DNA of 64,000 nt from Saprolegnia diclina VS20 (lineage: Eukaryota; Oomycota; Saprolegniomycetes; Saprolegniales; Saprolegniaceae), in the NCBI RefSeq assembly GCF_000281045.1, contig NW_008246081.1, positions 407,178 through 471,177 on the forward strand, given 5' to 3'. The position numbers were made by a program, and so were the translations under genes. The notes below the pieces were generated by a model that worked only from the letters and a program-made list of their open reading frames with translations, ran no database searches and was not told the origin of the DNA. Below are positions 26,193-64,000 of this stretch, piece after piece; position 1 is the first letter of the stretch, and each line of letters opens with the position of its first letter.

Positions 26193-28407
26193 CTACTCGT
26201 CTTGCTTTTGCTTCTTCTTGGGCGGCGGCAGCGACGTGAGCGCCGCGTCAAAGTCCAGCTCGACCTTCTTGTCCTTGAGCTGGTCCAAGTCCTGGTACGA
26301 CGTGCTCACTTGGCGCGGGTCGACCGGCAAGTCCCGCGGCAGCGGCGGCGGGCCGTCGCGGGGCATGTACGGGCGCGGCGGGCCGCGTTGGTAATACGGC
26401 GGCGGCGGGTTGTAGCCGCCGTGAAAGCCACGGCCACCACGGTCGCGATAATACCCGCCACCACCTCGGTACTGGTCGCCAAACGGCGGCGGGCCGCGGT
26501 AGCCACCACCTACAAAGGATGCATTCTGCAAGGCTCAAGACGATCCCAACACATACCTTGGCGGTAGTCGTGGGGCGGCCGGCGCATGGCGTTCGGGCCG
26601 AGCGTCGGCTGGTTGACCGTGTCGTACGGCGGCAGCGGTCGGTCCGGGTCTTCGCGGTACGACTCCCACATGTAGCTCTCGCCGACCTTGGCAATCTTGT
26701 CAACGACAAGCTCCGGGTGTTTGTTGCGAATGTGCTTCTTCACAAAGTCGACCGTCTTGAAGAGCTTGGTGCAGAGGAGGCACCGGTGCTTCCCGTCGTC
26801 GCCCGCTTTCTCCGCATACGACGTGTACACGGGCTCGAGCGCGGCCTCCTCGCGGGCTTCGATGTCGTCGACGAGCGCAGCCTCGGCCGCCTTTTGGCTC
26901 GCGAGCTTCTCGGTCGCGTTGGCCGCGATCGCCGCCTCAATACGCTCGTCCAAGGCCGCCGACCAGCCGCCCCAGCCCGCGAGCACCTTGTTGTCGCGCG
27001 TCGCAAACGTCTTGTGCTCGACCGCCTACTCGGAGACACCATGATGAAACCTCGACCACCGCACGGGACACGGTACATGGTTGTCCTCGACGTCGCGCTC
27101 GGTCGCGTCCGGACGGCAAAAGAGCGCCGGGTGCGCGTGCAGGATGTCGCCCATGTCGATGCACTGGACGCCGGCGTAATAAATAAAGTGGTGCACGCGG
27201 CGCAAGTACGCAATCACAATATCGAGCTGGGCCGCTTCCGAGAGCGTCTCCTTGCTGTCCTTGACGTGGTGGAGGACGCTCGAGACGCCGTGGGCCGACG
27301 TCGCCCCGAAGACGCTTGCGTCCAACAAGGTCGCGAGGTGCAGCGCCTGCTGAAAGTCGTACGTGATGCGCGCTGGCAGCGACATGCACGTCGGCGTCTT
27401 GATCGGCGCGCGCGACCGATGCTGCGCGACTTGGAGCCGGATCGGCGCCGGCATCTCCGGGTCTTCGACGAGCACGTTCTGGAGCTTGGGCATCGCCTCG
27501 AGCGCCGCGGCCGCCGTCTCGTAGATGATGTACGCCGACCGGTCAAAGTCCAGGTCGCGCTTCTTGGCCGGGTCTGACAAGTGCAGCTCTTGGATCGGGC
27601 CGCCCTGTCGTGCGTCATATGAGCTCAAGTGGTGTCAAGGAGGAGACGGATACCGCGTTGACGACGGCTTCGGCCAACGCAGCGTACGGGCACGAGCATG
27701 GGATGCGGCGAATGTACAGAATCCGGTTGCCTTCTTCGACGTCGTTCTGGAACGACGCTTCGTTGGCCATGTTGGCTTCGTGGAAGGAGATTTGCATGGT
27801 CGCGACACGCTCAAAGAACGCCTTGGCGTCGGCGGCCTTCTTCGCATTCTTCTGCAGCGTGAGGCGGTGGCGGATCGCAGGCGAGTAGCGCTCCTGCAGC
27901 CACTCCTCCGACTTGTGCGCGTCAAAGAAGACACGCATGAGGCCTTGAATGTACTTCTTCTTGTATTCCTCGTAGCTGCCACGTGGTGAGTATACGTCGA
28001 GAAAGAGGGACCTACCGCTGCTGGTAGACTTCGGGCGACGACTCGTCGTTTTGCTGCATCATAAAAGCCTTGTACGACATGAGCGGCTCGGGGCCGCGCG
28101 GGCGGCGCATGCGATCGTCCGGACGCTCGTTCGACCGCCTTCTGCCGCGGAACGGGCTGCGGCTGCGCCGCCGGGGCGGGCTGCGATTGCGCGGCGAGTT
28201 GGAGCGTCGTCGATCCCGGCCGCGGCTACCGCTGCGACTCTTGCTCCGGCCCGCGCGCGGAGCAGGCGCTCCACTCGACGGCGCTGGCGCGTCCGCCGGC
28301 GGTGGCGGGTTGGCGTGCTGCGCCGGAGCGTCTTCGTTGTACGGCGCGTTGTCCTACGTTGCATCGCCACGTGCGTCCTGCTGCTGCCATGGCGCGCCAC
28401 GTACCAT
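26193..28407 (-). CDS. SRRT: ARS2/SERRATE RNA-processing factor
   Basis: Exons: 28405-28407 (ATG only), 28016-28353, 27654-27975, 27077-27604, 26557-27025 and 26193-26509; introns are 40-51 nt and the sum closes exactly to 658 residues. The N-terminus is Arg/Ser-rich. It is followed by LMSYKAFMMQQND and an EEYKKKYIQGLMRVFFDAHK segment typical of the ARS2 N-terminal domain, then an RRM-like middle, the single C2H2-type zinc finger (CLLCTKLFKTVDFVKKHIRNKH) that contacts RNA and FLASH, and an RG/Pro/Gly-rich tail. ARS2 links the nuclear cap-binding complex to miRNA, snRNA and mRNA processing. The domain order is normal. The ATG-only first exon is supported by codon closure but needs transcript proof. 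Confidence 0.9.
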
Positions 28408-29296
28408 GACGGTCGGTTCTTCAAGCTCGTATTCGGCGCTTGGCAACTTTAAATGCTGGGCGCACCACAAACCTCCTTTCTTCGATTCCCATTTGGTGAT
28501 TATCCAGTGATTTTTAACCAATCAAACATAGCGGCCCTTGCTAGGCACCGACTAAACGACTAAGCCTACCGAGGGTTTCCCACATTTTTCACATTGCGTT
28601 TCACACATCGCACGTGGCACGCTCCCCGTCCTTGGCGCTCGCCAGCGCGCACCAAACACAAAGCACGACGTCTCGCACAGCGCAATAGCGCTACCACCTC
28701 AGCGGCTTGCAGGCATATCGAAACCCGATCAACAATAGAGGCAGCGCATGGAACAGCATCGACGCAACCGGTTGTTGGCCGCGTGACCAACTCGCCCTAT
28801 ACCGTCGGCTGCACCGTGCTTCTTGCATGCTCGGAGGCTCCTCATCGTTCAGTTAGTGGCTGTGTTTACGGACATGGAGCTACCCACGCGTGACTACTAC
28901 CACTACACACCAGAGCGCTGGGTGTCTCGATGGAGGAGCGATCCATCGTATGGGGCCTGGTAGGTGGCGTCGAGACGCAGGCCTGTTGGGATCTGTCAGC
29001 CGTAGCTAGGTTCCCGCGCGTTCCAAGGCCGTTGTACGAAGATGGCGCCAAGTGGTTCCGTGCCAGCTGGATCCGCGTTCAAAATAGCATTTGCCGCCAT
29101 GTTTTCCCTCCACTTTGAGCGTACTTAGCATTTCTCACCGCACTTTAGCGAGTCGCAGAGTGAAAAAAGGCGCGGGCTTTTGGCGGGAGGGCGGACTTAG
29201 TCGAGACGCATCCGGACTTGAGTGGACGCGACGCTGCCTGGCGGCGGCTACGACCCATTTTCCCTTTGAAGCCCATCATCGGTACTTGGCAGTAGC
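28408..29296. other. Intergenic, about 890 bp, divergent promoter of ARS2 and CDC6-like
   Basis: No gene recognised. CCAAT at about 28518 may serve ARS2. Short frames at 28566-28893 have no family features. The end near CDC6 contains the E2F-like and TCCGGA sites listed separately. Confidence 0.5.
29178..29216. promoter_or_regulatory. E2F-like site and TCCGGA motif upstream of the CDC6-like gene
   Basis: TTTTGGCGGGAG at 29178-29189 is an excellent match to the E2F consensus TTTGGCGGGAA, and TCCGGA lies at 29211-29216, 80-120 bp upstream of the ATG at 29297. CDC6 is a known E2F target in animals and plants, so the site fits the gene. Binding is inferred. Confidence 0.6.
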
Positions 29297-32200
29297 ATGG
29301 CGACGACGGACTGGCGACTAACTCCGCAGAACGTGGTCACGACCGATGGCGCCTGCGACGGCGTCAAGTGGCCCGCGCTCGTCTTCGCTTCGTACCAGGC
29401 CGCCAACGAGTGGCTCATCGACATCGAGCACCTCCGGCGGCTCAAGCCAGCGACCGACGTCGAAGACCGCGTCGTCTTCTACTTTGGACGGACGAGCCTG
29501 GCGCCCAACGACACTACACAGGTCGCGCTTTTACCGGCCAAGACGCTTGACGCGTCGCCGTGGTCGGCCGACGACAACTTGAGCGACGACCCCATGTACA
29601 CACACGCTATGGCCGTCGCAAGACAGTTTGCGGCCGCGCCCACGAAGCTCAAGGCGTGCGAGATTGTCTTCAACTCGTCGTTGGACAATGGCGTTGTGCC
29701 AGAGAGCCACGGCCTCGTGTCGCCCGGCGTCCACATCGCCGACGACGAGCGCGAGTGGAGCCAGCTCTTCGAGTCGATTTGGGACATCCTCGAGGCCGAC
29801 GGGTGGAGCCTCATCACGATTTCGGGCGACCTCATCTACGCCATGCCCGGCGTCGCGTTCAACAACTTTATGCCCGGCGTCACAGTCTACACGTCCAAGA
29901 AGGAGGCCTTCAAGAAGGCGCTCGACGAATATACGGCGGCCGAGCCGTCCGCTTCGACCGAGAGCCTCTGGAGCGTCATCTGGGACTACATGGAGACGCA
30001 CAAGCAGTGGAAGTCGTTCAAGATGCGCAACAACGACGTCATGTACCACGTGCCCGGCATCAGCGTCATGGACCTTGTCCAGAACGTCAACTTTTTCATG
30101 AACAAAAAGGACGCCGTGCTCAAGTTTACGAGCGAGCGCAAGAGCTTGGTCAAGAAGCGCAAGTCGCCGGACGGCGTCGAAGACGTGCCCCTCGCCGCGC
30201 CGTCGCCGCCCGTCGTCGTTGCGGCCGAGGCAAGCGTGGTGGCGCCCAAGCCGACGACTACGTCGGCGCTCCAGCCCGTTGCCCGGACCAAAAAGACAAA
30301 GAAGCGCGCGTTGAACGAGACAAGCGACAAGGAGAACAGCGACGTCAACAGCCGGTCGTCGACCTCGCACCGCCGGCGCTTTGGCGACGCCGAGTTTCCG
30401 TTTGCGCGTCTCTACAGCGTCCTCAAGGAGTTTGGCTGGACGTACGTCGCCAGCACCTTTGGCTACAAGTACGTGGTGCCCGGGCGTGACGCCAAGGGCG
30501 TCGAAGGCGTCGACCACTTTCCCACCGAAGAGGCCGTCATCGAGTTTCTTCAGAACAAGGGCCTGCTCCACGCGATCCAAGCGCATCTGCGCGGTGGTCC
30601 GATGCCAACGCTGGATTTCAATGCACCCACCGGTGTCCAGCCGCCGACAGCCAAGCCGGCAGCGACCAAGCCGGCAGTGACCAAGCCTGTCGAGCCCAAG
30701 CCCAAGACTGTCAAGCCCACGAAGCAGCGCCTCTCGTTCTCGGGCGTTGAGAACACGCCTGTCGCAGCGCCGGACGCCAAGAAGAAGGCCAAGGCGGTGG
30801 TCATCTCGGCCGAAGACGACGACACGTCCCCGATCAAGACGACGGTCACCAAGAAGGCAGTTGGCAACACTGCCAAGCTCAAGAAGCCCAAGGCAGTTGA
30901 AGGTGAGGCGGCCAAGCCCAAGAAGGTGGCAGATACTGCCAAGCCCAAGAAGACAACCGAGGCAGATACTGCCAAGCCCAAGAAGACGGCGAGCCGCAAG
31001 CTGACCATCTCGACCAAGGCGGCGGCCAAGGCCAAGGAGGTCTGTGCCGTGTCGCCGCCTCGCCGCGCAACGGGCTTCAAGTGCAGCTTTGGGCTTGTCT
31101 ACCGCGTGCTGCAGAGCCGGGGCTACACGCACAAAACCGGTCCGATGGGCTATTCGTACTTTGCCCCCGGCAAGACCGAGGCCAACGGCGAGCTCAACGT
31201 CGACTACTGGCACAACGAAGTGGACCTCGAGCTCTTCCTCAAACGCACGGGCGAGTGGGCGCGCATCTCGCGCATCCTCGAGCGCTCCTACAACGGGTAC
31301 TCGACGACTGAGAGTTCGCCGGAAGGCACGGCGGCGGCGTCCGAGGCGGGCACGCCGGCGCCGACGTCGCCCGTCCCCCGCTTCAACATGCCGTTGACGG
31401 ACGCCGCGGCCGCGTCCGGGCTCTTCTCGCCCGATCGGTGCAACGACGCCGACGACGAAGACATGGCCGTCGAGTCGTCGCCCGAAGCCAAAGCCGTAAA
31501 GCCGGTCCTTCTGCGCCAAAAGCCGCAGCCGAAGGTCAATGCCAAGAAGGCCGTACCGGTCAAGTCGTCGGTGACGATTCCTCCGTTCGAGATGAAGTTT
31601 GGTCGGCTCTTTAGCCTGCTCCAGAAGCGCGGGTGGCGCTACAAGAACGGCCTCCTCGGGTACGAGTACGCCGAGTACAAGGACCGGAAGGAGCTGCGCT
31701 CGTTCCACTCAGAAGACGACCTGATCGCGTACCTCAAAGCGACTAAGCAGTACCCTGATCTCGAAAAGGAGCTCCAGAAGGAGCACCGGCGTCGGTACAT
31801 CTACGAGTCGTCGACCGAGGGCGGGTCGGCCTCGGAGGCGCTGGTGCTGCCGTCGACGTCCGAGGACGAGACGGCGGATGCGACGTACTCGTTTGCCAAC
31901 ATTTGGCCCGTGCTCAAGGCGCGCGGGTGGACCGAGCGCAAGCCCAACACGATGGAGGACACGGCGTACACGTACTGCAACCCGCGCGGAAAGGTATACA
32001 ACAAGTCGGGTGTGGTGACGTACGCCAAGCTCGTCAAGGTCCTCGACGACGCCAAGGAAGACGACGAGAGCGAGAACAGCGACTCGGACTCGTCCAGCGA
32101 CGACGATGACAGCGAGCCTAGTGAGGCAAGCGACCCCAGCGACGACGACGACGACGGCAAGCCGACGCAAGACGACGAGACGGAGACGGAGACGGAGGTC

Positions 32201-33714
32201 GTCATCCACAAGACGCCGTCGACCAAGGCCATTGTGTTTGACACGCAGACGCCTGTGCTCCTAGACGTCGCGTCGTCGAGCGAAGAGGAGAAGACGCCAA
32301 CGACGACGTCGACACCAACGCTGACGTGGCAGCCGCCGGCTGACGAGGCGACGCAGGTGCTTACGTCGCCAGTCTCGTCGCCAGCCAAGAGTGCCGCGTC
32401 GTCGCCAGCCAAGAGCGCTGCGTCATCGCCGGCCAAGAGTGTGGGCTCGCCCGAGAAGGGCCCGTCGCTCGTGGAGCAAGAAGTGTCGCGTGTGCTCGAA
32501 AACCTCAGCCTCGCGCACCGCCCGGACGCGATGCCGCACCGCGCCAAGCAGCAAAAGATGCTCCACGACTTTGTCCGCCGCTGCGTGCATCAAAAGCAAC
32601 GCGGCAGCGCGTACGTCTCGGGCACGCCGGGCACAGGCAAGACCGCGCTCCTCCGCATCATGCAGGAGCAGATCACAAAGGAGTGGTCGAGTGCGCACCA
32701 GGCGACGCCGCTCTCTGTCCTCAACCTCAACGCGATGGCGCTCAGCGACAGCAACGGCGTCTTTACGACGATCGCGCGCAAGATGACCAAGCGGTCGTTC
32801 ACGTCCACGGCGGACGCCATTGCCGCTCTCGAGATCGCGTTCCAGAGCACCACCGAGACGACGTACGCTCTTTTCTATCAATCTATCAGTGTATCAACCG
32901 TGTCTCACATCGGTGTAGGTTGCTGATCCTCGACGAAATCGACGTGTTGCTCAACGGCAAGGGCGAGAGCGACCTCTACCGTCTCTTTGAGTGGGCGCAC
33001 CGCCCGTCGTCGTCGCTCATTTTCATTGGCATCGCCAACTCGATCGACCTCACCAACAAGTACATTCCGTATCTGCGCACGCGGTTGTGCATCCCGGTGG
33101 TCGTCATGTTCCGGCCGTACGACTACGACGCGATCCACAGCATCCTCGAGGCGCGCATCGTGCGCGACAGCCTCTTGCCCAAGGCGCTCTTTGAACCCGT
33201 CGCGCTCTCATTCCTCGCGCGCAAGATTGCGCAGCTCAACGGCGACATTCGCACGGCGTTTGACATTTGCCGGCGCGTCCTCAACCAAAAGGCCGAGAAG
33301 GAGAGTACGGGCAAGAGCTTTGCGGTCTCGCTCATGGAGATGTCGGCGACGCTCAAGCTTGTGGTCGACTTCCAAGGCTCCAAAGTGCTACAGACGCTGC
33401 CGCGCAACACGCAGTTCATCGTGTACGCGACGACCAAGATGCACCCGCGCGTCGCCAACGTCTACTCGATCCACGAGACGTACGACAAGTTTTGCGAACT
33501 GAGTCGATTGGCCGGCACGTCGGCGGCGTCGATCATGACGCTGCGCGAGTTTTACACGCAGCTTGATACGCTGTCGTCGCAGAACCTGCTGACGCTCAAC
33601 GTCAAGAAGGAGTCGTTCCGGCTCTTCATGACGAAAGAAGAAAACGAAAAGAGCTTGGGCGTCGACCCGTACTTCAAGGCGCTTCTGCGGACGTCGTCGT
33701 CCATGTCTCCGTAG
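29297..33714 (+). CDS. CDC6: CDC6-like AAA+ replication licensing factor with repeated N-terminal modules
   Basis: Two exons, 29297-32862 and 32919-33714 (56-nt intron inside a Thr codon), 1453 residues, about 2.5 times human CDC6. The C-terminal 400 residues are the AAA+ core: Walker A GTPGTGKT, Walker B LLILDEID just after the intron, sensor 1 region IFIGIANSIDLTNKYIPYLRTR, then a winged-helix end (LTLNVKKESFRLF). The wording IANSIDLT and the short gap to the winged helix fit CDC6 better than ORC1. The N-terminal 930 residues hold six copies of a roughly 60-residue module (residues about 153, 221, 365, 593, 764 and 862 onward), spaced by Lys/Ala/Pro-rich linkers and an acidic Ser/Asp stretch. 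There is no BAH domain that I can see. E2F-like site upstream. Confidence 0.84.
29753..32065 (+). repeat. Six divergent protein repeats in the CDC6-like N-terminus
   Basis: Copies start near 29753, 29959, 30390, 31075, 31588 and 31882. The shared pattern is an aromatic then a helix (IWDILEADGW, VLKEFGWTYV, VLQSRGYTHK, LLQKRGWRYK, VLKARGWTER), then a beta-like Y-x-Y or Y-x-V-PG stretch, then an acidic D/E-E-x-x-x-x-F/Y-L helix. Each copy is about 55-62 residues. Divergence at DNA level shows these are old, not recent duplications. Confidence 0.75.
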
Positions 33715-44270: not shown

Positions 44271-44675
44271 ACTCGCACCCTAAACCCGCTGTCAATGCAC
44301 GATGCCTCTTTTCGTTCTCAATAACACTGTTCTCTTGGCCTCAGCACACCATTTGCTATGCGGCAGATCTGGAGACTGCGTAGCCTCGAGTGCATCTGCT
44401 CCGTTTCTGTTCCATAACGCTATGGGCCATAAAGAGGAGCTGGCTACGGTTTTGCTTTTGCTACCCCGACCCCTAATGGACACCCTACCCCTCGCAGACG
44501 CCGAATTAGCTCCAAAGCTGTCCACGCATGGACGCTCCCGTATGAGCCCGTAGAATGCGCGCTGTACGATGCAATCGCCTTGTACCGGTAGTCAGCTGCG
44601 AACGCCTTTACAAGGTACTTGTGCTTCTACTTGGCGGTCGAGCGGAAACGAGAAGAAGTATTTTGCATTCGATTC
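44271..44675. other. Intergenic, 405 bp
   Basis: No gene or known motif. The frame of the next gene is open upstream to 44619, but I place the start at the signal peptide. Confidence 0.5.
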
Positions 44676-46205
44676 ATGCGGGTACATCTTGGGTGTCTCG
44701 TTGCGCTGGCCGTCTGCAGCTACGGCGCCGACGACGTTATCCGCGTCAAGACGCTCGAGCCGCAGGCCAACGACGGCGGCTTCCAGAGCCACAAGATCAC
44801 GAGCGCGCTCGGGGGCGACGGCTTCAAAAGCGAGTACCGCTGGTTCAACTCCAACATTGGCCTGCGCACCAAGCACGTGAGCGTCGGCGAGCTCGCGCGC
44901 ACCTTTTACGACGGCGTGGTTGGCACCACTAAGAAGCTCAAGTCGTATCTCGCTTCGGCTGTGCGCACCATGCAGCAGTCGCCAGCTCTTCCGACCGTCA
45001 ACAGTACTTTGGCGGGACCGCTGCTGGATCCGCGCGCCGCCTTTCTCACGATTGCCGAGTTTGTCCGCGCGTACAACATCTCGACAGAGCGCGTAAATGC
45101 TACCAAGGTGGCGTCCGTGCCGACGCTGCGTGCCTACACCTACACGGGCGTCACGTACATCAACGTCTCGGGCTCGATCGCGAGCCAGTATGCGCCGTAT
45201 CCGTCGTATACACCGAGCTACTACGCACCGTCGCTACCCAACGGTATTTTGCCGACGACCACGTACCCTTGGCCATGGGGCGGCGCGATCACGCAGCTCA
45301 ACGCGCTCGTCAAGCTTGCTGCGTCCTCCAATGCAACCGCAACCAGTGGCTCAAACGAAACACTGACCGCGATGCGCGCGATTTGGGCGTCGTTCTACAT
45401 CGTGTCGGGGATCCCCGTACCACCGATCGTACCACCGCGCACGTCGCTGGCGGTCGGCGATACATCGCAAGGGCTGGCCTTTTACGCATATCCGGCGCCC
45501 GCGGCCGGCTTTGGTCGGTCGGGCGTCACGTTCTTTGCGCCGTCGCTCTTGAACCGCAGCCTCTTGGCGATCGACCAGCTCCGATTAGCCTTCGACGATG
45601 CGCTGGACGCAGACGTCGCCGGATTGCTTCACGGGATCGAGTCGCCGTCGAGCACGTGGTACTCGGCGTACGACCGGGAGACCGACGAGCTGGCCGACTT
45701 GTGTCTCGGCAGTCTCGTCGCAGCGACATCGCGCGACGCCCCGCGCCTCTTCAACCTCCTCGTCGAGAACAACGTGCAGCAGCCGAGCTGTTTGTGGCAA
45801 GCCAACGCCTACTACTTCCGCGTCAAGGCCCGCGCGCCCCGCCGCAGTGTTTTCACAGAGGTGGGGTCCCTCGCTGCGTACGTCGGTGCGCGGGCGATGA
45901 ACGTGACGCGGCTCAAGGCGGCGCTGCGGGCTGACCGCGCGTCGGCGGTCGAGACTGCAGTACAGCGTGCCAATGCGACGAATATGCCGCCGCTAGCGAG
46001 CATGGGCGGCGGCGTCGTGCTCTTCGCAGCCAACGACGATGGCGTCGTGTTGCAGGTGATCAAGGAACCCGAGCCGATGCACTTGGTGCTTCGCGCCGTC
46101 ATTCGACTCGGCGAAAGCATGTTTTTGTCGGCCAAAGACATGGACGTCCTCGTGGCATGCGTCGCGCTGCAGCTGCTTGGCCACTCGTGTAGCCGCTGTG
46201 TATAA
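44676..46205 (+). CDS. Secreted orphan protein with many N-glycosylation sites
   Basis: Intronless. The ATG at 44676 was chosen because it opens a signal peptide (MRVHLGCLVALAVCSYG); an in-frame ATG 57 bp upstream would bury it. The 509-residue product has no TM helix after the signal, more than eight N-x-S/T sequons, two Tyr/Pro/Ser-rich stretches (residues about 165-200) and few Cys. I recognise no domain. Secretion to the cell surface, wall or outside is inferred from the signal and sequons. It could be a lineage-specific effector-like or wall protein; there is no RxLR or LFLAK motif near the N-terminus. Confidence 0.7.
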   Translation: MRVHLGCLVALAVCSYGADDVIRVKTLEPQANDGGFQSHKITSALGGDGFKSEYRWFNSNIGLRTKHVSVGELARTFYDGVVGTTKKLKSYLASAVRTMQQSPALPTVNSTLAGPLLDPRAAFLTIAEFVRAYNISTERVNATKVASVPTLRAYTYTGVTYINVSGSIASQYAPYPSYTPSYYAPSLPNGILPTTTYPWPWGGAITQLNALVKLAASSNATATSGSNETLTAMRAIWASFYIVSGIPVPPIVPPRTSLAVGDTSQGLAFYAYPAPAAGFGRSGVTFFAPSLLNRSLLAIDQLRLAFDDALDADVAGLLHGIESPSSTWYSAYDRETDELADLCLGSLVAATSRDAPRLFNLLVENNVQQPSCLWQANAYYFRVKARAPRRSVFTEVGSLAAYVGARAMNVTRLKAALRADRASAVETAVQRANATNMPPLASMGGGVVLFAANDDGVVLQVIKEPEPMHLVLRAVIRLGESMFLSAKDMDVLVACVALQLLGHSCSRCV

Positions 46206-46616
46206 CTTCTACGATCGCTACAGTGTGCTTTATTGGAGATGCCATCAAATGGGATCGATACAGGGCTCGGGTAGCTGCCTTGCGCACTCCCAGTCGTGTA
46301 GAGAAATCACGATTGATTGATTGATATTCTAGCAGAGCGTACTGGCTCACATCCACTACAATTGTAGAATGGCTAAAATACCATTCCTGCTGTGCATTTT
46401 CGTCGAGGGTTAGGGTACGAAAGTTGCTTTTGTGGTTCCACTTTGGAAAGGTCCGAATCCAGAATTGAGCTGCGATGGCGGGCATTTGGCCTCTGCCGTG
46501 GGGAATTTCAGAATCTGGAATTGCAATGTGACGCTGAACGATTCTGCTTTTGTCCATGTGATACGGCGACCGAGCGACGTGCGAGCTTTGCCACTCACTT
46601 TTCCTTTTGCTCGCTC
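46206..46616. other. Intergenic, 410 bp
   Basis: No gene seen. The P450 frame is open upstream from 46392, but the residues there are not P450-like, so this is treated as leader and promoter. Confidence 0.5.
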
Positions 46617-48098
46617 ATGGTGCTCGGGTTCACATTCGCACAAGAGACTGCAGCGGCCGTCGCCGTCGGACTTGCTTGCTTGCTCATCGCCAAAGCCGTG
46701 GTAGTCTACCGCCGCAAAGCTCGGATTGCCAAAGGGCTCGCCCATCTACCGAGTCTTCCGGGCCACAAACTACTGGGCAACTTGGTGCAACAAGGCGAGC
46801 ACATCCACGACCACTACTACTGGAAGCTGGAGCTTTTCGAGACGCTTGGGAGCACGTATGCGATGCGCGTAGACTTGCTTCTGGACGGCTCCGTGTGCAC
46901 CTCGAGCGCCGCCAACGTCCGACACATCCTCGCGACCAACCACACGAACTACGTCAAGCCAGCGATGATGCAGCGCGCGCTCGGTGAGCTCATGGGCAGC
47001 GGCATCTTCAACGTCAACCCATCCGCCTCGTCGAGCTGGAAGGCCCAGCGCAAGATCATCGCGTCGCTCTTCTCGACCAACGCCATCAAGACACTCATGG
47101 ACACCATCTTCGTCGAGCACACGTCGGCGCTCGTGTCGGAGATCGAAACACTAGGCGACGGTGCGCTCCTGGACGTCGAGGCCACTGCGCTGTCGCTGAC
47201 GACCAAGTTCACTTATGCCATGGCGTTTGGGCTCGCCTTTGAGACCGAGAACGCCACCGAGTTTCGAGACCTTTTTCGGGAAGCGAGCAACCTCAGCGTC
47301 TCGCGCTTCACGCAGCCGTGGTACCAATGGCTCGGCTGGTTCATGCCGTCCGAGTACCGCCTCGCGCGTGTCATGCGGCGCATCAACGCGCTCTGCCACG
47401 ACACGATCCGCACCAAGCGGCTCAGCGCCACAAGGGGCGACGACCTTCTCTCGGAGCTCCTCCGGCGCCAGGAAGCCGGCAACGACATGATTTCCGACAC
47501 CTTTATCCGCGACATGATGATGACCATGATGCTTGCGGGTCGGGAGACGGTCGGGAGCGGCCTCGCGTGGGTCATTTACACGGTGAGCAAGCACCCTATC
47601 GTCGAAGCGAGGCTCGTAAGCGAGCTGCAAGCCGGTGAGATTTCCTACGCGGGCGTCGGATGCATGTCGTACCTCGATGCGGTCGTGCGCGAGACCTTAC
47701 GCCTCTTCCCACCTGTGCCGTACGAGCTCAAGAGCGCTATCACGGACGATGTATGGCCCGACGGCACGTTTGTCCCGGCGGGAACCAATGTCGAATTTTC
47801 GCCATTCGCAATGGGTCGCAACGAAACCCGGTGGCCACAGGCAACGACGTTCTCGCCCGAGCGTTGGCTAAATGACACTCCACGACCAAGTGCGTTCGAG
47901 TACCCGGTCTTCAACGCGGGCCCGCGCAGCTGCGTCGGCCAAACCGTCGCGCTCCTCCAGCTCAAGGTTGTCGTCGCAAGCCTCTACCAGCGCTTTACGT
48001 TTGATCTTATTTCGCCGCTCAACGAGCCAGCGTTCGAGCTCGGTATCGGTCTCTTCTCCCAGGACAGCATTCAAGTCCGCGCGTACCTCCGGCACTAA
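46617..48098 (+). CDS. Cytochrome P450 monooxygenase (CYP86/CYP52-like)
   Basis: Intronless, 493 residues from the ATG at 46617. An N-terminal membrane anchor (AAAVAVGLACLLIAKAVVVY) is followed by a Pro-rich hinge (LPSLPGHKLLGNL). P450 landmarks: the I-helix oxygen-binding motif (AGRETVG), the K-helix ExxR (ETLR) followed by LFPPVP, the PERF-like region (PERWLN), and the heme-binding loop FNAGPRSCVGQ with the Cys ligand. The order and spacing are normal for a microsomal P450, with best resemblance to fatty-acid omega-hydroxylase clans (CYP86, CYP52, CYP704). The substrate is not determinable from sequence alone. It is expected in the ER membrane with a P450 reductase partner. Confidence 0.95.
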   Translation: MVLGFTFAQETAAAVAVGLACLLIAKAVVVYRRKARIAKGLAHLPSLPGHKLLGNLVQQGEHIHDHYYWKLELFETLGSTYAMRVDLLLDGSVCTSSAANVRHILATNHTNYVKPAMMQRALGELMGSGIFNVNPSASSSWKAQRKIIASLFSTNAIKTLMDTIFVEHTSALVSEIETLGDGALLDVEATALSLTTKFTYAMAFGLAFETENATEFRDLFREASNLSVSRFTQPWYQWLGWFMPSEYRLARVMRRINALCHDTIRTKRLSATRGDDLLSELLRRQEAGNDMISDTFIRDMMMTMMLAGRETVGSGLAWVIYTVSKHPIVEARLVSELQAGEISYAGVGCMSYLDAVVRETLRLFPPVPYELKSAITDDVWPDGTFVPAGTNVEFSPFAMGRNETRWPQATTFSPERWLNDTPRPSAFEYPVFNAGPRSCVGQTVALLQLKVVVASLYQRFTFDLISPLNEPAFELGIGLFSQDSIQVRAYLRH

Positions 48099-55559: not shown

Positions 55560-58418
55560 GCTGCGGAAGCGAATGCGAAAATGCAGCTGGCAGCGAGCAC
55601 GTTCGACGGGTGTACGGGATTGGATGATGTACGTACGTTGTACGACTGCAATGTACGGCGCAACCCCCTGCAACCACGTGACCCGCTCCTGCTAGTACAT
55701 TTCGAGCTGGTCGTCATTGTGCTGGATTGCGAGCCGGCGAGACGGAAGGACTGCAGCTCCAGCGACAGCTGCAAGGAGCATCGAGCGCGAGCCGTACGTT
55801 CGTACATTGGAGTGTACGGTACGGGATGCGATGGAAACACAAAAACCTGCGACACACCATGGCAAGCAAATCGACTAGAAAAGATACTAAAGAACTCGAA
55901 TCCAAGGACAATATTGGTTGACAGATTCGTAGGACTTTAGCAGTGGATCGAGATCGAAGAGTCTAGCCTTGGATAGTGATGAACGCACATATCCTTGGGC
56001 CAGGGTGCGTCGACCACCCACTGGTTTTGGTCGAACGGGCGAGCTTTGGCTACTCGAAACTCGGATCATTCGCACCTGGTGGCAGTGTCGTGTGCTTACG
56101 ACAGAATCCGGCGTCGTCAAATGTGGTCGACGCGCCGCGGGATCTGCTGCGTGCTCGATGGCTCCATGCTGCGCCGGATTACCTGGTAGAGTGAAGAGCT
56201 GTCTCTACCTTGCAGAGAAAGCCTCTCGCGAGTCGATTGTAGTCGAGATGTTTTGCGGCACAAGTCATCTCTGCGCATTTCGACAGAAACGAACTAGTAG
56301 GTCCAGCGTTTGTGGTCGATATACCAACGACACGACGTTGGTTGGGATGTTTGGGATGCATTCGACTAACTAAAATAACATTTTGGCAGCTCGCGCATGG
56401 CTTGACAACGACGCGTCAGCCTTCCGCCGAAAATTAGCATCCAAATACTATTGCGCCAAATATCCACAAGCGTGTCAGCCCATTACACCGCTCATTCGAA
56501 AATGATAGAACTATGATCATCGGGGGACTACCTCGTAGGATGTGGGTGGAATAGAGACCAGGCATTGGCTATAATTCGGAAATGGAGACCAGGCATTGGT
56601 CGAATAGTGGTTAAAGGGCACAGACCGGAGACCAGGCATTGGTCAAAATTGAAATAATTCAACGTGACACTCGAAGTTTGAAGCCAGGATCTTCGCTTCT
56701 TCGACATGAACCCGCCGAGCGTTGCGGCGGTTGAATCGGCAGTTGCAAACGATGGACTCCCGCAGCTCGGCGGCGAGCGGCCGACGATGCACGCGCGCGT
56801 GTGCGACCTCACTCGCTGGCCATGCTTGTCTGTCGTAGTGTGCTGTCCAAGCCACGCGCGCTCCTGTTGCACGGCGGCCAAGCGAGCGCAACGAGTGGCG
56901 TCGTACGAGACGACGTTTCCGTCACCAAGCTCGATGCGCTACCACGTCTTGGTGACCACTACGCGACTATGACTCTCGACGACAGCTTGGAGCGCCATTG
57001 GCAGCGCGCGATCCCGAGACCTCGAGACCTGGCAACTCTGCGCGGTGCCACACCATACACGAACCGGTACATTGCAGTCACATCTCATACATTGCTGGAT
57101 GTAGCGTAGCAGTGGCTAATCTCGATCGATATTATCTTATGCTAGTGATGTCTTTGACGAAGGCAGCACCATGCATGTTGCTTGCGCGTCATCGATTGAT
57201 CTGCGTCAAAGGAGACCAGGCATTGGCTGCTCGATATTTAGAGAATAGGCATTGGCTTTTCCATATTTCGAGACCAGGCATTGGCTGATTGCCAAAAAGA
57301 GCTGCCCAAGGTGGGCGGGTATACAAATTGCAAGTCATGCCTTTTGGAGTCAAAAGGTACACTTGAATTTTGTATGTGCGATGAAATGGAGCTTGAATCG
57401 CGATGGTGCCACTGCCAGTGGGACGCCCGCGACAACGAAGCGGCCATTGATCGCGCCGTTCGAGCGTCGAACTTCCCTCTTCCTTTTTCTTCTCCTCTTC
57501 GATTTTAAAAGGCACAAAGTGTTATCTCCCCACATCCTAAAGGGTACTCGCCGATCATCGCACAGCAAGATCCGCAGTCGTAGCGATACAAGCAAACGAC
57601 ATTTGGCACCATTGACAGGATGAATACACGCAAAGCTCTGTGATTGCCGCCTAAGCGAGGTCGTAGGCAGCGTCCTTGCACTGTGGAAGCTACTACCTAG
57701 TTGAAGAAGGCGATTTCTTCATTCCACCAAGGTTGTCGAAGCGACCAAGGTCGAGTTGGGTGTTTTTAGCGTCTGCATCTGACAAGCTATGCGATGGCTC
57801 TTTTCGCACGCACGTTGAATGAACCGTTTCGCCAAGATCGCAAGCCGACAACGATGGACGACGCTGCTTGGGGGAGATGGGAGATGATGCTTCTGCATGG
57901 AGACAACGATGGGCCTCCGCCATGAGCCTACGCGAGACAGGCGATGGACGCGTCCCCTCCGCGACCCTCGTGATCGGCCATGCTGCATGCGCCAGTAGAG
58001 CACCGGTAAAACGACCGCCCTCATGACCTGCCAAACGACGGTGAGGACCACGTGTAGGTGGAGAAAGCCGACTCATGTCGATGCTAGCAGTCGAATGAAG
58101 TGCATGGCGTCGCCAGGTCGCTCCTCGTCGCTATGTCAAGCTTTTGTCGCTCGGCAGAAGCTTCCCACGAGACGAGCAAGAACCAGGGCGCAAGAAACGA
58201 AGCTACCAGCTTGTCGTGCACCATCCAGCAAATTCGAGAGGCCGTGCGCCCAACGAGCAATCTCGCTGGCTCGAGTCCCTTGCCTTGTCCCAGCTCAACG
58301 ATACGAGTCCACCAGCGTTCGGACCATTCTGCGCGACCTGTCCCGCCATGTTCTCAACGGTCGCTTCTCGCGCGAGCTTCTCTCGACGCCATTGTGCCAT
58401 TGTCCCTCGACTACGAAA
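55560..58418. other. Gene-poor stretch of 2.9 kb with short direct repeats
   Basis: The longest stretch without a supported gene. 55560-55850 probably holds the promoter and signal-peptide exon of the receptor kinase. 56550-57290 contains the repeated element listed below. Frames at 56700-57110 on both strands and at minus 57693-58076 show no family features and conflict with one another. AT content is higher than in the flanking genes. No RNA gene recognised. Confidence 0.5.
56553..57286 (+). repeat. Six dispersed copies of AGACCAGGCATTGG in two clusters
   Basis: Copies begin near 56555, 56586, 56629, 57213, 57243 (variant AGAATAGGCATTGG) and 57271. All are in the same orientation, each followed by C or T. 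Three lie on each side of a roughly 570-bp block. Spacing within clusters is 30-43 bp. They may be remnants of a mobile or satellite-like element, or multiple binding sites. Confidence 0.75.
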
Positions 58419-61400
58419 ATGGCGTCGCGCATGACTGTCGCGACGAGCTACGAGAGCTTGTCCTGCTACCACCTCTTGCGCATGGCCGTCGAAGACGACG
58501 CCGGGGCGGTCGTGTTCCAGCCAACGCTCGTCGAGTCGGAGCTCCTCCGCCTTCTCGGCGCGCTGCATGTGGTCGATGGCGCCAAGAAGATGCCAGTGGA
58601 AGAGCAGCTCGGGCGCTTTGTTGACGCTAGCGACGCCGATCGGAGCATTGACGTGGTGGCCTGCTTCGGGAAGCAAGCCGCGGTCCAAGTCGAGCTCCGC
58701 CAGCGCGGGTGGTGGCTCACGAAACTCGAACACTATTTGCACGCGGACGACGAGGGCGTGTTCGTAATTGTGCTCCCCGATGCCCGGCCCAAGGTCGTGC
58801 TCTTTACGTGGCTGCTGGACAGCGCCTTTGCGCCCGAGTACTTGCGCGAGCGGGCGACATACGCGCTGCGCTTTGTGACGACGCTGACGTCGACGGTGCT
58901 GTGCTGCCTCACGGACGCCGACTGGACTGCGCTTGAATTGGCGGCGGCGGACGAGACGAACGACATTGGCTCGAGCTGGATGAAGTACTCGGTCGAGTTT
59001 TCGATTGCAGAGGCGGCAGTGCAAGACGAGATCGTGACGTGCGTTGCGCTGCCGACAACGACGCAACTGCCGCAAGGCCTTGTACTCGTGTCGTCGACGG
59101 GTCCGACAGCCGTGACATTCCGCGTGGCATCGGAGACCAGCATCACCACCAAGAAGGGTGTCGTGGGGCTGACGCCACCCACAGCCTTTGCGAAGTGGCT
59201 GGTCGATGCTGCGACAACGCACCGCCTTGAGCTGAAAGTGGGTCTCCCGAAGCCGTGTATGAAGGCGGCGCTAACAGCGTGGTGCGCGTGGCCAACGTGG
59301 GCACTGGACCGCGTGACGATTGCGGGCGTCCGCAACGACATGCGCCCCGACGTGACGACGAGGGTCGAGTGGGAACTGCACGACTTCCTCGCGCGTTTCT
59401 CCCACAATGCGAAGGTGCTTTGTTACATGGCACCCGAGCCGCGCTCGGCAGTTGCAGAGGAGCGAGCTCACGCCGAGATGATGGCCGACTTGACGAGCCT
59501 CTCAAACCAACTCGCTGGAGAGTTGCCAATTCCAGCGGACCTCTCGTCACTTCCTGCCCATGTCAAAACCATGATCAACGCGGAAGGAGAGGCGATGTGG
59601 CGCGCGACCCCACGATCGGCTGGCATCAAGTCGTATGCCGACGCTACCAAGTCCCCAAGCCAGAGTTGGCTGGTCGCCGACCACTTTGAGCCGTTTTCGT
59701 TTCCGTTTGTGGGCAAGAGTCCCGCCGCCATGGACCTCATTGTGCCCCGTATCCTTGCAGACCTGAAGGCGTACTACGACAACTGGTTATCTGCGCTGCA
59801 AGAGTTTTTGTTCGAGCCAAAAGTCGCAAGTGCCATGGTCGAGCACGCGCTTTTGCAGGCGGACACGACTGCGACGCTCTGCTGCGCCCGAGATGCTCTC
59901 ATCTACGAAGCCTTTGTCGCGGCTATTGACACGCGCAACCGTCTGCACGCGGCAACGGCGCTGACGACGACGCTCGCCAAAGGCGCCGACGCGGAGCACT
60001 TGAGTGTTGCGCAGCAGCATATTGGCGACGGTGGCCAAACGCTGTACCTTACGCACCAAGACGGACGCGCGCTCGCCCAGCTGCACTTGCCATTGCACGT
60101 CCGCATCTTGCTCGTCACGGTCGTTGACGCCGTTCTTGTCGTCGTCTACACGGACGACACCAAGACGACAGTGCGCTCGTACACGCTGCATGGGCCACGC
60201 TCGCTCAAGAAGCACGTGTCGAAGCCGTTTCCGCATGTGGTCGAGCGCTGCGACTTTGACCCGACGCAACGCACACTGGCGCTTTTTCACAGCGACACCT
60301 TTGTCGACCTGCTGACGTTTACCCCGACATTCACGAAGCTCCTTGGGCGCTCGCAGCGCGTGGATCTGCGCGTGCTGCGTCCGTTGCCTCCGTTTCGAGA
60401 CGTTTTGATGTTTGGCGGCGACCAGCCTGGTCTCTTGTGCGTGGGCGACGATGGCAGCGCGCAGTCGTACGTGCGGCAGACGCGGCAGCTGTCCAAGCAC
60501 GTACCCAAGTTTGTCGCCACACCGACGACCAAGGTGGTCAAGTTCAAGGACGGCGCGTTCATCGTGCGCCTCATGCCGCTGACCGACCAGTCCCTTCGCG
60601 TGCAAACGATGACCACGCACACCCTCGCGCCGCTGCCCGAGACGACGGTTGCGCTACCGTGTCTCCTCGACTGGAAAGCTACCGAAGCGCGCGCCTATGC
60701 CGACACGATCCTGCTCCTGGACCCGACGACGGGCGCTGTGGTGGAGCTCCAGCTGACGGTGGTCTCTGGTCAACTCGCTTGGGAGCTGCAGTGCGCACAG
60801 CAAGCGGCGCCAGCCAATTTGAACGAGTCGTCGCTGCTCTGGGCTGTCTTCCACGTGTTTGAGAAGTTTCCCGTGCGCGCCATGATGGACGAGACGTCGA
60901 GCCGCCCGGCGCTGCAGCTGCGAGCCCACGCGTCGTCGCCGGCGCGTCGCGAAGTGTTTTTAACGACGTTGGACGCGGTCATGACCAAGCTCGGAAGCCT
61001 CCAAAAAGACTTGACGCCGCTGGCGCTGGCCAAGGACGCAATCGTGGACGCGTCGCTACTGGTGTGGCCGACAATGGCGCTTGCACCGTGGATCCTCGAG
61101 CTCGTGGGCTTTGTGCCCGTGCCCATTTGTCGCGCGCAGGACAACCAGCTCCTTTTGCTGCGCGACGGCGTCACCATGGCGTTTCGCGACGGGTCGGAAG
61201 CGCACACGCTGGCGCCGCAGATTGGCTTTGGTGCTGCGAGCCACGTTCTCCGAGCGTGGAGTGGCCCTGTCGTCGTACTCACGTCGATGGGGAAGCAGTC
61301 GACTGGCAAGTCCTACTTTTTGAACCACCTCACGGGCAGCTCGTTTGCGATTTCCGGCGCGCGCTGCACGGACGGTGTGTGGCTCACGCTGCGTCAATTG

Positions 61401-64000
61401 GGTCGGTGCCTCGTGGTTGTGCTCGACTTCGAAGGCCTCGGGTCGTTTGAGCGTTCGGCGCAAGAAGACACACTGCTCTCGGTGCTCAACGCGGCCGTCT
61501 CGCGCCTCACAGTGTTTCGCATCGAGATGCGCTTTGACAAGGACGTGGACGGTATGTTTGCGAAGTTTCAGCAAGGCGTCGCGCTGCTCAAGGGCGACGA
61601 GCGCCTTTTCTGCGGCCGTCTGCTTCTCAACGTCAAGGACGTCAACCCGCACGACCAAGCGTCGGTCGTTGCCGAGTTCAAGTCGAAGCTCGAGGCGGTT
61701 TTGAGTGAAAACAAGGCCAACAACTTTGTCAAGGTCATGTATGGCGGCGGCACGACCATCACGTGCTGTCCACCGCTTGGCAACCAAGGCTATTACGATG
61801 CGCTAGAAGAAGCCGCTTGCAGCTTGCACGCTGCGCGCGCCAAGGCCTATGCGAACGGCGCCGACTGTCACGACACGCTGAACATGGTGCTGGCCAAGAT
61901 TTCGCTGCTCGACTGGACCGACATGGGCGATAATGTGCAAGCCCACAAGTTGGCGCAGCTGTGCGACGACATTCGCCATGCTCTGCGCTATGGCTGTCTC
62001 GACGATGACGAGACGCTTGGCCCGGACGACGATGCGACGATGACGGCCCAGCGACAAGCCATGGTCTTCGATTCCCATCTCGACCTGCCACCCGACGAGA
62101 TGCTCGAGTTCGAGCTGGATGCAGCCGACGACGACGTGGCGTCGACTCTGGCGTCGGCAAAAACCATCTTGTTGTGCTACCTGGAGCAGTTTCTGATGCA
62201 AGTGGACGCACCGCGCAGTCTGGTGCTGGAAGCGCGCTTTGATGTTGTGTGGAACTTTGTCGTCTGGCGCCGCGAGTACCGCGTGCGGTCGTGGTTTGCG
62301 TCGCTCGCAGCCAGTGGCCGCGACGAAGCCGATTTGCTGGACGTTTGCGTGCGCCGGATGAAGCAGTACCTGCGCCGCTGCCAGCACACGTGCGCCAAGT
62401 GCCAGCTTGGGTGTTTTGAGTCGATTTTGCACGAAGCCAACGTCGACCATGACTGCGGCACAGACCACACGTGCGCAGGCTGCTGCTCGTACTGCACGGC
62501 GGGCAATGTGCCGTGCGGGGCCGCCGCCGGACACACTGGCCCCTGCAACTGTACATACGCCAACCACACGTGCACGTCCCCCTGTGTGATGGCGAGTGCG
62601 AGCAACTGCGACGGCGACTGCCACCTGCCCGTCGACCACGACGGACCGCACGCGTGCAACGTGGCCGAGCATCGCTGCAGCCACGCGTGCACGGCGCCCG
62701 ACTGCCGCAGTCTGTGCACGCAGCTCTTTGCCATCACCCACGATCGTCACGACTGCGGATCGTCCAGTTGTATGCGTGGCTGCAGCATTGCGGGGTGCTC
62801 TCGCCTGTGCCATGTCCAAGACCACTTTCATGCTGCCGGCCATACCTGCGGCGCGGACCACCGATGCGCCACCGAGTGCGCGGCCGACGGCTTATGCGAG
62901 GTCAAGGTGCAGCGTACGCCGACGACCTTTGAGGGCGGCCGTGGCACGTTTGAATACACGCAGCAAACGATGGTCGGCGTGCGCAAAAAGTGTGCGGCCT
63001 TGCTGCCAGTCGGGGCGCTCGATCACGACGGCGCCGCGCACCGCTGCGACGCGACTGACCACACGTGCGCTGCGCAGTGCCCGTGTTGCCGCTACTACTG
63101 CACCAAAGCTGTCGGTCACGCGGGTTTGCACGCGACGTCGCACGGCAACATGACGGAGACGTACTTTGTCTCGGATGTTGCCAGCGTTGACATTGCCGGA
63201 CGGGCCTACGTGGCGGGCGAAGACGGCGTTGCCGAGATGTGTCCTTTCTTTTGTTCGAAGATGGGACGCGGCCACGTGCACTATGTCCCGTGCGACCACG
63301 CGAGCGCCGATCTCTGCAATGCCTCGGACGGGCGCCGCCACTGCACGACGGCGTTGGAGCCACACCCGACACGGCCCATGGACGAAGTGCTCCACGCAAC
63401 GTACTGGAAGATGCAAGGGTGGGAGGACCCGGTGGCAAGTGCCATGGACCGCAACGCCTTTGGCTTGTGTCCGTACCAGTGCGCGGCCCCCAGCCACAAG
63501 GAAGGCGAGACGTCATTTTGCACGTTGGAGGCCTGGCATGCGCCGGTGGTGGCCAACGCGCCGCCCGGCCACACACTCGCGCGCGGCCACGTGCTGCCAT
63601 GCACGCACACGGCGCATCGCGGCCAGGTGCACCACGTGTTTGTCCTCGACACGTCGGGCTCGATGCGCGGCCAGCGGTGGACTGACGCCAAAAACGCTGT
63701 GTACGAATACATTGCTCAGCAGCGCGCCAAGAAGGGGGCCATGTACCCCGACATTGTGTCGGTCATTTCCTTTAGCGAAGGCAGCCAAATCGTCTACGAA
63801 GGTCGGTCGCTGTGCAAGATGGGCCGCAAGACGTGTGCGGCGATTCCGTTTCGCGGCTTCGGCACCAACTACAATGACGGTCTGCGCGCGGCGATCGAGG
63901 TGCTGTCGCGCAACGACCACACGACGTACACGCCGGTGCTGCTCTTCTTTACGGACGGCCGCCCCCACCACGCGAGCAATGGCGTCGACTTGGCACGGCA
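58419..64000 (+). CDS. Giant VLIG/URGCP-like GTPase with Cys/His-rich region and VWA domain, 3' partial
   Basis: One uninterrupted frame from the ATG at 58419 to the window end: at least 1860 residues without an intron or stop. Residues about 1-900 have no domain I recognise; about 500-800 is rich in beta strands (propeller-like alternation). The G domain (about 945-1130) has P-loop GKQSTGKS, the distinctive GARCTDGVW, G3 DFEGLGSFE and a G4-like NVKD; this set most resembles the very-large-inducible/URGCP GTPases. Residues about 1320-1700 are Cys/His-rich with repeated H-x-C-x3-C patterns. A VWA domain starts at about 1737, with MIDAS residues DTSGS, a Thr in GFGTNYNDG and FTDGRP. The protein should be cytosolic. 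Function is unknown; immune, proteostasis or membrane-remodelling roles are possible. Confidence 0.82.
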   Translation, partial: MASRMTVATSYESLSCYHLLRMAVEDDAGAVVFQPTLVESELLRLLGALHVVDGAKKMPVEEQLGRFVDASDADRSIDVVACFGKQAAVQVELRQRGWWLTKLEHYLHADDEGVFVIVLPDARPKVVLFTWLLDSAFAPEYLRERATYALRFVTTLTSTVLCCLTDADWTALELAAADETNDIGSSWMKYSVEFSIAEAAVQDEIVTCVALPTTTQLPQGLVLVSSTGPTAVTFRVASETSITTKKGVVGLTPPTAFAKWLVDAATTHRLELKVGLPKPCMKAALTAWCAWPTWALDRVTIAGVRNDMRPDVTTRVEWELHDFLARFSHNAKVLCYMAPEPRSAVAEERAHAEMMADLTSLSNQLAGELPIPADLSSLPAHVKTMINAEGEAMWRATPRSAGIKSYADATKSPSQSWLVADHFEPFSFPFVGKSPAAMDLIVPRILADLKAYYDNWLSALQEFLFEPKVASAMVEHALLQADTTATLCCARDALIYEAFVAAIDTRNRLHAATALTTTLAKGADAEHLSVAQQHIGDGGQTLYLTHQDGRALAQLHLPLHVRILLVTVVDAVLVVVYTDDTKTTVRSYTLHGPRSLKKHVSKPFPHVVERCDFDPTQRTLALFHSDTFVDLLTFTPTFTKLLGRSQRVDLRVLRPLPPFRDVLMFGGDQPGLLCVGDDGSAQSYVRQTRQLSKHVPKFVATPTTKVVKFKDGAFIVRLMPLTDQSLRVQTMTTHTLAPLPETTVALPCLLDWKATEARAYADTILLLDPTTGAVVELQLTVVSGQLAWELQCAQQAAPANLNESSLLWAVFHVFEKFPVRAMMDETSSRPALQLRAHASSPARREVFLTTLDAVMTKLGSLQKDLTPLALAKDAIVDASLLVWPTMALAPWILELVGFVPVPICRAQDNQLLLLRDGVTMAFRDGSEAHTLAPQIGFGAASHVLRAWSGPVVVLTSMGKQSTGKSYFLNHLTGSSFAISGARCTDGVWLTLRQLGRCLVVVLDFEGLGSFERSAQEDTLLSVLNAAVSRLTVFRIEMRFDKDVDGMFAKFQQGVALLKGDERLFCGRLLLNVKDVNPHDQASVVAEFKSKLEAVLSENKANNFVKVMYGGGTTITCCPPLGNQGYYDALEEAACSLHAARAKAYANGADCHDTLNMVLAKISLLDWTDMGDNVQAHKLAQLCDDIRHALRYGCLDDDETLGPDDDATMTAQRQAMVFDSHLDLPPDEMLEFELDAADDDVASTLASAKTILLCYLEQFLMQVDAPRSLVLEARFDVVWNFVVWRREYRVRSWFASLAASGRDEADLLDVCVRRMKQYLRRCQHTCAKCQLGCFESILHEANVDHDCGTDHTCAGCCSYCTAGNVPCGAAAGHTGPCNCTYANHTCTSPCVMASASNCDGDCHLPVDHDGPHACNVAEHRCSHACTAPDCRSLCTQLFAITHDRHDCGSSSCMRGCSIAGCSRLCHVQDHFHAAGHTCGADHRCATECAADGLCEVKVQRTPTTFEGGRGTFEYTQQTMVGVRKKCAALLPVGALDHDGAAHRCDATDHTCAAQCPCCRYYCTKAVGHAGLHATSHGNMTETYFVSDVASVDIAGRAYVAGEDGVAEMCPFFCSKMGRGHVHYVPCDHASADLCNASDGRRHCTTALEPHPTRPMDEVLHATYWKMQGWEDPVASAMDRNAFGLCPYQCAAPSHKEGETSFCTLEAWHAPVVANAPPGHTLARGHVLPCTHTAHRGQVHHVFVLDTSGSMRGQRWTDAKNAVYEYIAQQRAKKGAMYPDIVSVISFSEGSQIVYEGRSLCKMGRKTCAAIPFRGFGTNYNDGLRAAIEVLSRNDHTTYTPVLLFFTDGRPHHASNGVDLAR

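Follow-up and report, generated by a model that had tools for sequence, protein, structure and literature searches.

What kind of protein is encoded by a frame that runs for more than 5.5 kb to the very edge of the DNA under study, and what might an oomycete use it for? We ask this of a 64,000-nucleotide stretch of Saprolegnia diclina VS20 (contig NW_008246081.1, positions 407,178 to 471,177; C14:407178-471177 of the genome that we searched), hereafter the window, in which a giant-GTPase frame begins at an ATG at 58419 and continues on the + strand, stop-free and still open, to the window end (58419..63998, residues 1-1860). The protein looks like a member of an old and widespread eukaryotic family of giant GTPases, which we rate as distinct within the GBP/VLIG superfamily and whose shared half comprises a GTPase (G) domain, helices, a Cys/His array that presumably binds metal, and a von Willebrand factor A (VWA) domain; as an oomycete member, it would add alpha/beta, helical and beta-propeller parts before that half, as judged from alignment and a structure model. 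The frame is the longest stop-free run in the window, within a stop-to-stop frame beginning at 57999, and a run of 1860 codons is expected with a chance of only ∼1.7e-26 per start position at the window's base composition; its length and its homologues thus exclude a chance frame. The base directly after the window is the first of 9613 N, within which the C-terminus presumably lies, and we discarded a 5426-aa frame at the locus as an artefact of this N run.

The original prediction had combined three G motifs, a Cys/His-rich, zinc-binding-like region and a VWA domain with an intact metal ion-dependent adhesion site (MIDAS) in this one frame, and the combination is borne out. To score conservation, we used a 49-row alignment of the window fragment and 48 author-chosen, mostly full-length relatives out of 120 listed; a first search, limited to scoring the 7983 candidates with the most words in common, had yielded 154 proteins, and a second search yielded 56, of which 51 were new (P0121-P0171). 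The G domain (residues ∼926-1165, 61194..61913) is supported by profile and predicted fold. Its G1/P-loop GKQSTGKS (residues 958-965, 61290..61313) has G958, S961, G963, K964 and S965 identical in all 49 rows and Q960 in 48; in the G2/switch I motif RCTDGVW (982-988, 61362..61382) R982, T984, G986 and W988 are identical throughout, as are D1003-G1006 of the G3/switch II motif DFEGLG (1003-1008, 61425..61442). To these we add a G4-type KD (1073-1074, 61635..61640), with D1074 in 48/49 rows and position 1073 occupied by K in 41, R in 4 and N in 3. Across the first set of 120 and the 51 proteins added by the second search, the P-loop pattern G.[QRP]S.GKS occurs in 110 and 26, respectively (the 10 of the first set that lack it being mostly Aphanomyces models), R.T.G.W in 111 and 50, DFEG in 109 and 50, D.S.SM in 98 and 33, and HGNM in 94 and 34. 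Overall, 21 of 236 G-domain residues are invariant in the 49 rows, compared with 2 of 153 in the helical region modelled behind it (residues 1166-1318, 61914..62372).

The Cys/His block that follows (residues 1319-1735, 62373..63623) holds 82 Cys/His in 417 residues, of which 56 are invariant in 49/49 rows and 13 more are present in at least 44, while only 5 of its 335 other residues are invariant. This pattern points to metal binding, and at four ligands each the invariant residues would accommodate ∼14 zinc ions per block. Within the window protein, this block has no match to any Pfam family, zinc families included, and a fold search, which barely covered the block, reported no known fold. 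The VWA domain (residues 1736-1860, 63624..63998, its end beyond the window) reaches 44.3 bits with the VWA_2 profile (cut-off 27), which also matches 19 of 21 scanned members at E<=1. All five MIDAS residues are in place (D1744 in 47 of the 49 rows, S1746 in 48, S1748 in 47, T1816 in 43 and D1846 in 43), although none of the domain's 125 residues is invariant. So far as the aligned members tell, the half from G domain through Cys/His block to VWA is co-linear.

The protein had also been read as a VLIG/URGCP-type GTPase, with a profile search, a structure prediction and a phylogeny proposed as checks. URGCP_GTPase (PF25683) is indeed the best-scoring GTPase profile, at 35.8 bits compared to 22 for RHD3 and 19.7 for GBP, and a precomputed PF25683.2 label, from a newer version of the model, is attached to many relatives. 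Yet the score falls below the cut-off of 55 bits, as does the 39.2 bits of a six-frame search, whereas eight URGCP/VLIG loci of the same genome reach 155-194 bits in the six-frame profile search, with frames of 841-2206 codons (L012, L013 and L016-L021, at C9:1108346, C159:10252, C6:834747, C6:843591, C6:819740, C61:47329, C15:356344 and C7:613998). GBP-type loci are present in the genome as well, and the window protein lies close to the GBP cut-off of 21.1 bits, at 19.7 as protein and 23.7 in the six-frame search. A G-domain tree of 38 rows resolves three separate groups, the window family (27 rows, support 98), VLIG (8, 95) and GBP (3, 96); this tree is unrooted, comes from a quick search with a long-branch warning, takes its VLIG and GBP rows from S. 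diclina only, and omits 1 of 28 family rows in which a motif was missing. By BLAST, 7 of 28 members lie nearer to VLIG and the other 21 to GBP, the two scores being almost equal.

A true VLIG/URGCP member diverged beyond the reach of its profile would account for that best profile score and for two shared motifs, QS.GKS in 8/8 and RCTxG in 7/8 of the S. diclina VLIG frames. It would also account for a short Cys/His signature (residues 1550-1582, 63066..63164) to which the C-terminal CPxCxxxC...GH...H of the VLIGs aligns, with an hhalign E of 2.2e-4 and a probability of 45% (E 0.057-0.56 for four controls) and BLAST E values between 3.6e-4 and 0.055 against a database of a few frames; we regard this weak link between the two families as suggestive, not proof. 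A whole-protein profile comparison with VLIG gives E 1.3e-10 and probability 96.9 over 621 columns, of which the G domain is the convincing part. With the profile score below cut-off, a G domain outside the VLIG group and no VWA match in the five of eight VLIG frames that were scanned, we rejected VLIG/URGCP membership and consider it very unlikely; we take the window family, from these comparisons, as a third one beside VLIG/URGCP and GBP. As a separate observation, two of the C6 URGCP/VLIG loci, separated by ∼9 kb, point in opposite directions and are identical over the stretch of G domain displayed.

How far does such a family extend? Named oomycete members include those of Saprolegnia, Achlya, Thraustotheca, Aphanomyces, Phytophthora, Pythium, Albugo, Peronospora and Lagenidium. 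Other named relatives belong to Calypogeia, Ceratodon, Selaginella, Ceratopteris, Cryptomeria, Taxus and Klebsormidium, to the dinoflagellates Symbiodinium, Durusdinium, Effrenium and Oxyrrhis, and to Convolutriloba, Pelomyxa, Pisolithus, Lactarius, Mycena and Glomus; to these we add, presumptively and from the style of their identifiers, Sycon (scpid), Mesostigma (Mesvir1) and Cyanophora (tig00000194). Vertebrates and angiosperms are not among the names listed for 120 of the 154 and 56 of the 56 proteins, many rows being nameless, which is no proof of absence. In a tree of 59 rows (58 of the 120 listed proteins and the window protein), the Shimodaira–Hasegawa-like approximate likelihood ratio test (SH-aLRT) supports the oomycetes (22 rows) at 100, land plants (9) at 100, dinoflagellates (4) at 98 and an acoel-like group (4, one of them named) at 100. 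The phylogeny thus brings the oomycete proteins together, and its supported groups fit vertical descent within each; SH-aLRT was the only support measure in a quick search, with P0004 overlong and long branches flagged, and we do not trust the deep branching. Lateral transfer, raised by the original prediction, finds no support: two peptide patterns, a limited probe, gave 37 hits in prokaryote genome contigs and 18 in viral contigs, with 0 confirmed relatives in either.

The part before the G domain is less uniform. It begins with an alpha/beta region (residues 76-163, 58644..58907), modelled as strand-helix-strand-strand-helix-strand, followed by a mostly helical region (254-510, 59178..59948), which together with the stretch preceding it diverges fastest among Saprolegniales, and by a predicted beta-propeller (∼511-791, 59949..60791; pLDDT, the model's per-residue confidence, 77-93 in ten-residue blocks to 780). 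An N-terminal second G domain was considered but finds no support in sequence: hhalign of the N-terminal part with the G domain gives E 0.19, within the controls (0.061-0.56), and residues 60-190 have no sequence similarity to either G domain; the resemblance is confined to the succession of strands and helices in the model. Besides the window locus, S. diclina has four open loci, on contigs C12 (61% identity), C58 (49%), C11 (55/40%) and C100 (35%), and an apparently decayed copy (C10:322784-325704) with stops in several matched pieces. Compared with the nearest paralogue, identity is 85% in the G domain, 69% in the alpha/beta part, 64 and 68% in the two zinc halves, 57% in the VWA, 55% in the propeller and 38% in the helical N-terminal part; compared with a liverwort, the corresponding values are 44, 16, 38 and 38, 23, 12 and 14%. 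Over long distance, therefore, the core that stays constant is the G domain and the zinc block, to which neither the VWA nor any of the N-terminal part belongs.

The predicted structure, in which the G domain takes the GBP/atlastin fold, bears on a further explanation, namely a housekeeping GTPase for membrane remodelling or tethering, similar to atlastin or Sey1, with the VWA and the zinc array as adaptors. The top fold matches include atlastin and Sey1, the RHD3 Pfam model matches 21/21 members at E<=1, and a hydrophobic stretch at residues 557-579 (mean 2.2) would be enough for a membrane segment. In the structure model, however, this stretch forms propeller strands; the RHD3 profile retrieves no S. 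diclina locus above its cut-off, the window family scoring 24-31 bits, and several diverged copies in one genome would be unusual for a housekeeping gene. We consider a membrane GTPase of this type rather unlikely.

Some relatives carry additional modules. The scan of 21 members found RING and B-box models in a few (among the 25 of 30 matched families listed, 20 of them without positions), and in four proteins scanned singly all such matches lie outside the Cys/His block, at places that differ between members: a RING-H2 after the VWA in P0021 (Phytophthora infestans, 2093-2141) and P0040 (Pythium oligandrum, 2050-2097), B-boxes together with a RING ahead of the G domain in P0097 (113-153 and 783-830), which groups with the sponge-style rows in the 59-row tree, and N-terminal B-boxes in P0095 (2-88). 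These modules would fit a giant scaffold of the ubiquitin pathway, in which the zinc array is a ubiquitin ligase or binding module and the GTPase regulates assembly, as would the source name of two Pelomyxa members, E3 ubiquitin-protein ligase TRIP12. That name may be an annotation error, though, and the Pfam scan of the window protein gave no zinc family in the block, whether RING, B-box or another. Nor do the Saprolegnia relatives leave much room for a further module: among 11 relatives compared past the window end, 8 extend 52-76 residues, P0021 extends 127 and 2 gave no value, and the five from S. diclina and Saprolegnia parasitica stop 52-76 residues past it, about the remainder of the VWA. 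A ubiquitin scaffold seems to us quite unlikely.

The explanation that we prefer, tentatively and at somewhat less than an even chance, is an old GTPase of the third family that assembles itself into a GTP-driven coat or scaffold, perhaps for cell-autonomous defence. On binding GTP, two molecules would pair through their G domains, as GBP and atlastin do, and the helices with the metal-clamped Cys/His half would build a coat or scaffold from such pairs. The helices and propeller before the G domain, which vary more, might pick the target, the Cys/His array would offer an unchanging platform on which the protein assembles or binds effectors, and the VWA could make a metal-dependent contact; the RING or B-box added in some lineages would point to ubiquitin tagging. 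The most likely use would be cell-autonomous defence, or dealing with large cargo, foreign or damaged, within the cell. By analogy of fold and size, the nearest worked example is human GVIN1, which is reported to coat cytosolic Burkholderia thailandensis and block actin tails (PMC11974893).

Several points weigh against a self-assembling defence coat. Since the family is not VLIG, the parallel with GVIN1 is one of fold and size only, and several diverged copies also fit housekeeping scaffolds. A cytosolic location of the window protein is assumed, and the stretch at 557-579 is hydrophobic enough to span a membrane. Near relatives preserve the alpha/beta part to the same degree as the zinc block, and the VWA shows no particular conservation, so that a division into variable reader and frozen platform holds only in part. 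Of the second-set proteins, 25/51 lack the usual P-loop pattern although 50/51 keep DFEG; some members may thus fail to bind GTP in the customary way, or may be partial gene models. The whole argument for zinc, finally, is one from conservation. A still wider proposal, which we regard as possible but doubtful, is that these proteins form a third family of giant GTPases that spans the eukaryotes, predates the animals and builds defensive coats, characterized by an invariant array of ∼14 metal sites joined to a VWA, by a faster-evolving, target-recognizing part before the G domain, and by repeated gains of RING or B-box; the VLIGs would then be its sister line, having retained no more than the final zinc signature.

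GBPs and GVIN1 have been studied as vertebrate interferon effectors, and oomycetes are not known to have interferon. The occurrence of a giant GBP-fold family with a strikingly conserved Cys/His-VWA half in mosses, conifers, dinoflagellates, oomycetes, fungi, an amoeba and acoels, and probably in sponges, would mean that the design predates animal immunity, and would make the question testable in a non-pathogenic moss. The Cys/His block would be a large conserved metal module for which we found no named family. In sequence databases, proteins of this kind are already labelled VWFA domain-containing or VLIG-type G domain-containing; among the titles listed by full-text searches of the open-access literature, none belonged to a paper on the family.

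Is the lack of introns itself informative? The original prediction had contrasted a frame of >5.5 kb without an intron with intron-rich neighbours. The uninterrupted frame stands, and the genomic frames of three paralogues, P0001 (1932 residues), P0054 (1902) and P0011 (two overlapping loci), are 100% identical to deposited S. diclina VS20 proteins, which supports single-exon genes in the family. The contrast with the neighbourhood, however, is weak: other uninterrupted frames in the window span 1218 codons (a weak AAA match, under cut-off), 839 (TMF1 type), 654 (leucine-rich repeat) and 573 (cytochrome P450, at 46377-48095, its domain spanning residues 126-546 of 573), and in a scan of the window for intron consensus sequences shuffled DNA scored above the real sequence. 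Absence of introns is thus not special here and says little about a retrogene-like origin, which accordingly goes unsupported. Long uninterrupted frames with no or weak Pfam matches lie at 29270-32923, 44592-46202 and 26279-27574, all on the + strand.

Upstream of the gene, and outside the protein, lies a dispersed repeat of ∼1 kb (56523..57554, no strand assigned, recognized by its genome copies), of which contig C9 holds a 97% copy, and C133, C6, C29 and others hold shorter fragments. It holds five exact GACCAGGCATTGG sites where 0.04 are expected; the 15-base form of GACCAGGCATTGG occurs 12 times in the genome. Just past the N run, locus L010 (C14:480791-481456) is a frame end with Thr/Pro/Lys/Ser-rich repeats and a Cys-containing tail, which by eye we take to resemble the end of a secreted chitinase-like protein.

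Set beside known systems, the window protein shares with VLIG/URGCP proteins (PF25683; human GVIN1) a giant single frame, a GBP-like G domain behind a long N-terminal part, the P-loop and, for the most part, switch I patterns and perhaps, weakly, the short C-terminal Cys/His signature. It differs from them in having five HxCxxxC motifs, compared to 0 in the eight S. diclina VLIG frames (some partial), in reading DFEG where 8/8 of those frames read DTEG, and in its VWA, a domain with no match in the five of those frames that were scanned. GVIN1 is reported to have two LG (large GTPase) domains (PMC11974893), whereas a second one is not detectable by sequence in the window protein. The 3/3 S. 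diclina GBP-type frames read have the P-loop GLYRTGKS in contrast to GKQSTGKS, and compared with GBP and atlastin (PF02263) the window protein is much larger, with propeller, Cys/His array and VWA in addition. What sets its VWA apart from those of other VWA-domain proteins is the fusion with a GTPase of GBP fold and with a Cys/His block of 417 residues.
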